Shown piece by piece: positions 61,984 through 64,000 of a DNA stretch of 64,000 nt (within the stretch, counting starts at the first letter, position 1; each line of letters begins with the position of its first letter). Location of the stretch: NCBI RefSeq assembly GCF_004027225.2, contig NC_044277.2:100061725-100125724 (forward strand), written 5' to 3'. The notes beneath the pieces are model-generated. The model did no database searches. It had not been told where the DNA came from and saw only the letters and a list, made by a program, of their open reading frames with translations. This DNA is from Strigops habroptila. Lineage: Eukaryota; Chordata; Aves; Psittaciformes; Psittacidae. A program made the translations under genes and the position numbers.

Positions 61984-63267
61984 ATGCCTCAGAAGTCCTC
62001 GACAGGACTTGCCCAGGAGCCGGCAGCTCAGCTCACGCGAGCAGCTGACTCACAGGGGGCGGCGCCAGGAGTGACGGCACCAGCCCACAGTGGGGAAAAA
62101 CCCATCCCAGGGAGCGCGGTGAACAGGGCGTGGCACGTCAGTCAGGGTGTGGCGCGGCAGTTTGCGCGGCAGTTCGCGCGGGTAGCGAGCGGGATGGTGA
62201 GCACGCGCCTCAGGACCAGGGCCCGCTCTGGGAGCTCTGCCCCGGCGGTGGCCAGCGTAGGCACCCAGACAGAGCCGATGAGAGGGGAGGCTGCGGCGCA
62301 GACCTCGAAGTGTAGAAAGTGCCTCGACTGGTCTCTTGAGGCGAGGGTGCACAATGGACAGGGCTGCACTCAGTGCGCCCTGGTGGAGGTCCTCCTGCAG
62401 CAGGTGGCTGAGCTGCGGGAGGCTGTTGGAGAGCTAAAAGATGCCAGGGAAGCTGAGAGGAAGCTGGGCTGCTTGCTCAAGGCCCAAACTGTGCAGGGGC
62501 TGCAAACGTCTAGCACTGCTCATATAGGAAAGAAGGAGGGCAGCAACCCAGGAAGCTGGGAATTAGTCATGAGAAAAACGAACAAAAAAAGGAGGAAGAG
62601 GACAATTAACGACAAGGGGCTTCCTCCTAAATCTGATGTCCCCACCCAGAACCGCTTCGCAGTTCTGCAGGGGGCTAATGAGAAAGCACCCACCACACCT
62701 AATGAGCACCCTGCTGATGCACCAGTAAAGAGGATCGCTACTGGTGCCTCCAGGAAAAAGAGGAAGGTCATAACAGTAGGGGACTCTACTTTGAAAGGCA
62801 CAGAGGCACTCATCTGCCGTCCTGATCCAGTCTCGAGGGAGGTGCGTTGCCTGCCAGGGGCTCGGATCAGGGATGTTGCTGAGAGGCTGCCTGCTCTAGT
62901 AAGTCCTGCTGACTATTACCCCCTCCTAGTGGTCCATGTGGGTGCTAGAGATATAGATAGCAGTAGCCTGGAAAACATTAAGAAGGTCTACAGAGCCCTG
63001 GGAGAGGTGGTTAGGGGCTCTGGAGCTCAGATAGTTTTTTCATCGATTCTCCAGGGCAAAGGGGAGGACCTTAAAAAAGCTAGGCACGTTTGGCAGGTTA
63101 ATAAATGGTTAGAATGCTGGTGCCATAGTCAGGGGTTTGGCTATTTAGAACATGGGGCTCCATTTGGGAGGCCAGATCTACTGGAGGCTGGTGGAGCTGG
63201 TCTGACAAAGGGGAAGAGCTGTTTTGGTAGGAGGCTTGCCAGGCTGGTCAGGAAAGCTTTAAACTAG
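61984..63267 (+). CDS. CR1 LINE ORF1 protein (zinc-knuckle-like, coiled coil, SGNH-esterase-like)
   Basis: 427 residues from the first ATG; the frame is open upstream to at least 61891, without an ATG. Order: a basic, low-complexity N-terminus; a Cys cluster C-x2-C..C-x2-C (CRKCLDW..GCTQCA, residues 110-132) followed by a Leu-rich coiled coil (about 135-170); a basic stretch (KKRRKR); then a C-terminal esterase-like domain with VGDST (265-269). CR1-clade ORF1 proteins are known to bind nucleic acid and carry such an esterase domain. Two other SGNH blocks look degenerate: GARD (320-323) in place of GxND, and GGAGLT (403-408) where DGxHLT is usual, so catalytic activity is doubtful. The stop codon immediately follows a TTTAAAC heptamer. 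Confidence 0.85.
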
Positions 63268-64000
63268 ATGTGTGGGGGGAGGGGAGCGTTGATCCATCCC
63301 AACATTCCTGGTCAGTTGCCAGCACCTGTAATAAGTACTTGGAGCGATGTAGAGATGTTCCAGCTGCCCCAGCCATTGAGTCGGCTCCATTTGGAGCTCG
63401 GCTAAGGTGCCTCTATACAAACACCCGTAGTATGGGGAACAAGCAAGAGGAATTAGAGATGTGTGCAAGGCTACGGGAATATGATGTCATTGGTATCACA
63501 GAAACATGGTGGGATGGCTCCTATGACTGGAATGTCGGAATGGAAGGTTACAGGCTGTTTAGAAAAGACAGGCCAGGCAGACAGGGAGGGGGTGTTGCTA
63601 TCTATGTCAGTGATAGGCTAGAGAATATGGAACTCTGTCTGGGAACGGGTGATGAGGTAACAGAGTGTTTGTGGGTCAGGATCAAAGGGAAAACAGCATC
63701 AGGGGACATTACGGTGGGGATCTGTTACAGGCCGCCTGATCAAGAGGACTCTGTGGATGAAGCGCTCTACAGACAGATAGGAGCAGCCTCACGCTCGCAG
63801 GCCCTGGTCCTCATGGGGGACTTCAACCATCCTGACATCTGTTGGAGGGACGGTATGGCCCGGCACAAGCAATCCAGGAGGTTCCTTGATTGTGTGGAAG
63901 ACAACTTCCTCTTTCAAGCAGTAGAGGAGCCGACGAGGAGAGGTGCCATGCTTGACCTTGTGCTCACCAACAGGGAGGGACTGGTTGGAAATGTAACGCT
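63231..64000 (+). CDS. CR1 LINE ORF2, 5' part: AP-like endonuclease domain
   Basis: An open frame in -1 relative to ORF1, without stops from 63231 to the window end (256 codons), overlapping ORF1 by 37 nt. Endonuclease landmarks in order are LYTNTRSM (Asn of motif I), ITETWW (Glu), [32 protein letters not shown] (Asp/Asn) and LDLVLTN. The reverse transcriptase part would follow outside the window. The first in-frame ATG (63432-63434) comes after the conserved Asn, so normal initiation there would remove part of the active site. Confidence 0.85.

Follow-up and report, generated by a model that had tools for sequence, protein, structure and literature searches.

How the second open reading frame (ORF2) of a CR1-type LINE is translated is the question raised by the last 2.1 kb of the window (the whole stretch of 64,000 nucleotides of Strigops habroptila DNA analyzed here), which hold the 5′ half of such an element on the + strand. 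The CR1 label is the assignment of both the initial annotation and the present analysis. Based on sequence comparison, ORF2 is probably translated through programmed −1 ribosomal frameshifting. Ribosomes arriving at the end of ORF1 would carry Leu-tRNA and Asn-tRNA on UUA AAC, with UAG as the next codon. A minority is predicted to slip back by one base onto UUU AAA and to continue in the ORF2 frame, yielding an ORF1-ORF2 fusion, and the remaining ribosomes would terminate, yielding the ORF1 protein.

Anatomy of the ORF1-ORF2 junction

The window copy contains the following features:

61984..63267, + strand: CR1 ORF1, ending in Ala-Leu-Asn-stop (frame open from 61882, ATG used at 61984; identified from homologues)
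63231..64000, + strand: ORF2, −1 frame, truncated at the window end (open frame; endonuclease by Pfam and fold)
63258..63264, + strand: candidate slippery heptamer TTTAAAC in the X XXY YYZ register (from the sequence and its conservation among loci)
63264..63395, + strand: linker from heptamer to endonuclease; its −1 frame is open and has no ATG (sequence and copy comparison)
63265..63267, + strand: ORF1 stop TAG, the codon adjoining the heptamer on its 3′ side (sequence; kept among loci)
63275..63284, + strand: purine tract GGGGGAGGGG (start at heptamer +10 nt in families A, B, and C)
63396..63998, + strand: apurinic-like endonuclease domain, partial (Pfam and fold; YTN codons at 63414-63422)
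63432..63434, + strand: first ORF2-frame ATG, within the endonuclease (sequence and copy comparison)

The junction codons at 63256-63267 are GCT TTA AAC TAG. Reading the frames bore out the initial annotation in placing TTTAAAC (63258-63264) in the ORF1 register with TAG as the next codon, and in assigning ORF2 to the −1 frame, which is open from 63231, runs to the window end, and in this copy has no ATG before 63432. The ATG directly after the stop (63268-63270) belongs to the ORF1 frame, as had also been noted; this frame closes 45 codons on, at 63405, and never joins ORF2, so stop readthrough was rejected. The G-rich run described at this site spans 63274-63284. Its first G is found in the window copy only, as 29 of 30 copies have TGTTGGGG.. 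there. The window copy is itself dead, with an ORF2 frame that stops 356 codons after the heptamer.

The heptamer occurs 16 times in the window vs. 8.9 times expected, a count reached by 3 of 100 shuffles, and its occurrence by itself is unremarkable. Four of these sites (1552, 7581, 28585, and 47558) apparently lie in CR1 3′ ends, with TTTAAACTGA.AGAGGGGAGATTTAG or a close form of it, and may account for part of the surplus relative to expectation. With the codon usage of this ORF1, a slippery heptamer within three given codons has p ~0.005, and GCT-TTA-AAC given Ala-Leu-Asn has p ~0.03. The evidential weight therefore lies in the conservation across copies, not in the single window copy.

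ORF1 of the window has no Pfam match at 1e-3, and its homologues, which carry PF13472 or are named SGNH hydrolase-type esterase, place it among ORF1 proteins of the esterase-bearing kind. The nearest one listed is a Strigops (kakapo) SGNH hydrolase-type esterase with 92% identity over 84% of the query. ORF2 encodes an APE-type endonuclease (Pfam PF03372 and PF14529), and some of its homologues contain PF00078. For a structural model of the first 245 ORF2 residues (low confidence, mean pLDDT 59), Foldseek returned the TRAS1 endonuclease as the best match and LINE-1 at rank 4; a sequence search of the PDB gave two matches, weak and unrelated. Structure alignments begin at model residues 43-47 in 30 of 50 rows and earlier in the other 20, and the first Met is residue 57. 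The claim that an AUG start would break the nuclease thus agrees with the model (pLDDT 59), in which the fold begins before this Met. A protein starting there would lose the first endonuclease strand and the Asn of YTN, which is presumably a catalytic residue. The distance between the two had been given as three codons; with the Asn codon at 63420 and the ATG at 63432, three codons lie between them and the Met is the fourth codon on.

Conservation of the junction in the kakapo genome

Copies were searched for in the organism's own assembly (1,148,577,936 bases, 89 contigs). At the DNA level, the best 40 of 1,955 candidates are the window copy and 39 others at 98% identity. They belong to a young family, here named A; the letters A, B, and C were coined in this analysis. 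TTTAAAC is present in all 30 excised loci, window copy included. The first ORF2-frame ATG is that of the SMGNK motif in 27 of these 30 copies (SMANK in one); L055 and L060 have a stop before this ATG, and L066 is shifted. An ORF2 frame of 972 codons counted from the heptamer was found in 9 of 13 fetched copies, 12 of which had been preselected because their frame had not yet closed where the first excised piece ended. In a protein search, 38 of 49 scored matches (the best 49 of 112,600 candidates) have a frame of 981 codons, nine before the heptamer plus the 972, and internal stops are listed for six of the 38. Loci matching a 15-letter pattern (n = 41) were left out of the analysis. Of the 39 other best-scored copies, 38 have a length of 603 vs. 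600 in the window copy. The window copy also lacks one Lys codon near 63207-63210 (LTKGKS vs. LTKKGKS in L093, L095, and L103).

More divergent families were retrieved with the distant ORF1 protein P0007 as query, which gave 118 matches and 30 loci. Family B comprises L085, L086, L088, L089, L091 (a near-duplicate of L089), L092, and, added later, L115; family C comprises L087 and L090. Identity to P0007 is 49%-55% in B and C (60% over part of the protein in L115) and 41%-45% in A. All 64 loci of the three families (L042-L071 and L085-L118) contain TTTAAAC, followed by TAG in 62, by TAA in L105, and by a lost stop in L087. L089, L091, and L092 have upstream indels, yet the heptamer and the stop are both intact in them. 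Young A copies make up the majority of the 64 loci, and thus the lineages compared at the DNA level number three rather than 64. Among older relatives of family C (71%-86% identity to L090), four of the eight read, out of 40 scored, contain TTTAAAC, and the other four differ from it in four distinct ways. This loss in old copies fits neutral decay and adds no support for frameshifting.

An alignment of eight copies spans 2,356 columns; when a single representative of each of the three families is scored, the longest identical run is GCTTTAAACTAGA, 13 nt long and located at the junction. As the next runs measure 12, 10, and 8 nt, this run alone is not decisive. In ORF1 before its last three codons, 36 columns hold a residue common to A, B, and C, and its codon is identical in 7 of them (6 of 39 when other copies are taken; L090 is partly frame-broken). 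For Leu this is so in one of nine columns, and the same-codon rates between family pairs are 37/97, 18/49, and 28/65. The heptamer is thus conserved beyond protein requirement in three families at the DNA level.

The spacers between the junction and the ATG of SMGNK are 174, 129, and 303 nt long, the family C value resting on one copy. Among 10 copies tried, 8 were measurable, and in these ORF2 always stays in phase in the −1 frame; that frame has no stop, and each of the others has 1-10. The SMGNK motif was not recovered in L115 and L087, whose −1 frame contains one and two stops, respectively, within the 330 nt read. Taken together, aligning the junctions as the initial annotation had proposed revealed the heptamer, its register, the abutting stop, and the −1 position of ORF2 in three CR1 families of this genome. 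Among variants common to at least 4 of 54 family A copies, no purifying selection was seen on the ORF2 frame of the spacer (2 synonymous, 5 non-synonymous, and 1 stop), and the synonymous to non-synonymous counts are 9:9 in ORF1 and 14:16 in the endonuclease, with a synonymous share of 0.27 expected by chance. The spacer variants are close to this chance mix, suggesting that the linker residues are not visibly constrained, albeit from few sites.

The genomic distribution of family B is uneven: 24 of its best 40 scored copies, including several mirrored pairs, lie on contig C25 (37.4 Mb, 3% of the assembly), which may be the W chromosome.

The junction in other birds and turtles

Two protein searches listed 85 ORF1-type proteins, of which 51 reach the natural C-terminus by the pattern used; the other 34 fall short of it, being cut or chimeric. 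The 51 end in ALN (n = 47), SLN (n = 2), ASN (n = 1), or LAT (n = 1), and Arg-Ala-Leu-Asn is nearly invariant at the ORF1 C-terminus of the proteins listed. Proteins ending in ALN are found in parrots, swallow, whydah, penguin, swift, ducks, crane, pelican, killdeer, ostrich, and several turtles, and among metagenome proteins. Such near-invariance of a peptide would also be expected if the block were conserved for the ORF1 C-terminus itself or for an RNA function such as RNP assembly, and not for ORF2 translation. We consider this explanation very improbable, as the need for a peptide by itself neither fixes codons nor holds the phase of ORF2 behind spacers of three different lengths.

The other reading frame is visible in gene models. 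In 17 of them, among 205 proteins collected (stork, ibis, crane, duck, and godwit), xFKL followed by Gly-Glu or Gly-Gly is read across the junction in the −1 frame, under a pattern that demanded FK and then L, P, or Q. Two further stork models (P0070 and P0105) have FKLD without the Gly pair, and the crane model P0025 has LKL at this position. No turtle gene model among the 205 proteins has the FKL reading. Where FKL in the −1 frame and a Leu-Asn end of ORF1 come from the same element, T TTA AAC is the only possible sequence. The junction therefore appears to be kept in other birds, as inferred from the two reading frames of protein models and not from DNA. Gene models favor open frames, so that their openness is no test.

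From these comparisons, a more far-reaching scenario can be drawn, for which we see the chances as evenly balanced. The CR1 ORF2 of birds and turtles may have been a frameshifted fusion since before the two lineages split, produced via a UUUAAAC that abuts the stop and with a purine tract at a fixed distance taking the place of a pseudoknot. The turtle part of this scenario draws on ORF1 protein ends alone, not on DNA. As a side observation, the protein P0144 is listed as one of Klebsiella pneumoniae but is a CR1 ORF1 of the bird type, and its record probably holds bird DNA.

Routes to ORF2 translation

The main rival of frameshifting is termination at UAG followed by reinitiation 2 nt on, at an ORF2-frame NUG or without AUG. 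The codon at heptamer +12 in the 64 loci is GTG (n = 52), TTG (n = 6), ATG (n = 5), or CCG (n = 1); by family, C and one A branch would restart at AUG, most A copies at GUG, and most B copies at UUG. Since 63 of the 64 loci thus have GTG, TTG, or ATG two bases past the stop, reinitiation stays viable, and PMC5972666 describes it for SART1 and reports it as a proposal for LINE-1. In the 17 bird gene models, however, the same codon encodes Ser (n = 9), Leu (n = 7), or Asp (n = 1), while all 17 retain FKL (FK being preset by the pattern). Reinitiation also leaves unexplained why the heptamer is invariant and why codons ahead of the stop are constrained at synonymous positions. Both the invariant heptamer and the fixed phase are predicted by frameshifting and are not needed by reinitiation, which favors the former, and we regard reinitiation as unlikely. 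A SART1-like AUG that overlaps or adjoins the ORF1 stop is not a general feature of these elements, with an ORF2-frame ATG at this position in 5 of the 64 loci and GTG, TTG, or CCG in 59. In the A branch with L093, L094, and L098, the ATGTG that follows the stop is replaced by ATATG, which creates an ORF2-frame ATG (codon 4, as counted in L093).

An AUG of ORF2 itself is another conceivable start. The initial annotation named an ORF2 start codon upstream of the Asn motif in consensus elements as evidence against its reading, and such codons exist in part of the material: in L086, L088, and L089 at codon 22, in L090 at codons 4, 5, and 22, and in the L093 branch at codon 4, as well as in some gene models. 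They are absent from 27 of the 30 family A copies. ORF2 of families B and C, turtles, and geese could thus start at its own AUG, leaving the heptamer as a relic there or as a signal for family A alone. Among the ORF2 models of turtles, goose, and stork, some have their first Met upstream of TNARS; gene models may begin at any Met, however, and so tell little, and several crane models begin only at the inner MGNK. Moreover, the codon 22 ATG is missing from L085 of family B, AUGs in other frames lie upstream of it in L086, L088, and L089, and the heptamer is nonetheless retained in B and C. Together, these observations make a separate AUG start rather improbable.

The heptamer anatomy, its conservation, and the lack of an AUG before the endonuclease in 27 of 30 family A copies agree with the frameshift reading, but the downstream RNA, proposed to form a stimulatory structure, gave no consistent stable fold. 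Four folds had z values of +0.3 to +1.3 relative to shuffles, and one of 21 in a second set fell below −2; a downstream hairpin is not supported. The G-rich run is conserved in position and sequence, and only its structural role lacks support from folding. By inspection, it does not have the four separated G pairs of a G-quadruplex. As GGGGGARGGGG, the purine tract starts 10 nt past the heptamer in representatives of A, B, and C and is partly lost in L087 and L092; it is a possible stimulator, or may simply code for Gly-Glu-Gly. The sole match to a known RNA element within 62900-63700 lies at 63018-63064, scores below the gathering threshold, and is off the junction.

Frameshifting of the −1 type is well known from retroviral gag-pol, and coronavirus sites use UUUAAAC, the same heptamer as in CR1, together with a pseudoknot. 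No pseudoknot was found at the CR1 junction, where folding was done without pseudoknot models. The predicted CR1 arrangement differs from gag-pol in that CR1 is a non-LTR element, the stop abuts the heptamer, and no recognizable stem was found by pseudoknot-free folding. Retroviral and LTR gag-pol nevertheless resembles CR1 in having a structural or RNA-binding ORF followed by an enzyme ORF in the −1 frame, with an X XXY YYZ junction and a short overlap. The review PMC5009743 describes LTR elements whose pol lies in the −1 frame and, among non-LTR elements, HeT-A. HeT-A of Drosophila is, like CR1, a non-LTR element and is said there to require frameshifting, although this serves gag expression and reverse transcriptase is not encoded (PMC5009743). 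SART1 is likewise a non-LTR element with two closely joined ORFs, coupled by a restart at an AUG overlapping the stop (PMC5972666), whereas in most family A copies the AUG that abuts the stop is out of frame with ORF2. LINE-1 shares with CR1 an ORF2 without a normal start (PMC5009743 and PMC5972666), but in LINE-1 a 63-nt spacer lies between the two ORFs (PMC5972666), and those of CR1 overlap. Programmed CR1 frameshifting is not reported among the literature matches listed, and the portions of the CR1 papers covered do not mention how ORF2 is started. If frameshifting does occur, the predicted fusion would link the ORF1 esterase to the endonuclease-reverse transcriptase, and its rate would set the ratio of the two proteins. 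A vertebrate LINE would then group with retroviruses in a gag-pol-like expression strategy, and not with LINE-1, and the junction would be a directly testable signal.

Viral contigs and genome contigs yielded no confirmed relatives. One further candidate, the 1056-codon ORF1 frame of L127 (G000:C4:37188030-37188110), was rejected because heptamer and stop are missing, apparently through an internal deletion; its frame passes from the end of ORF1 into what appears to be the middle of ORF2.
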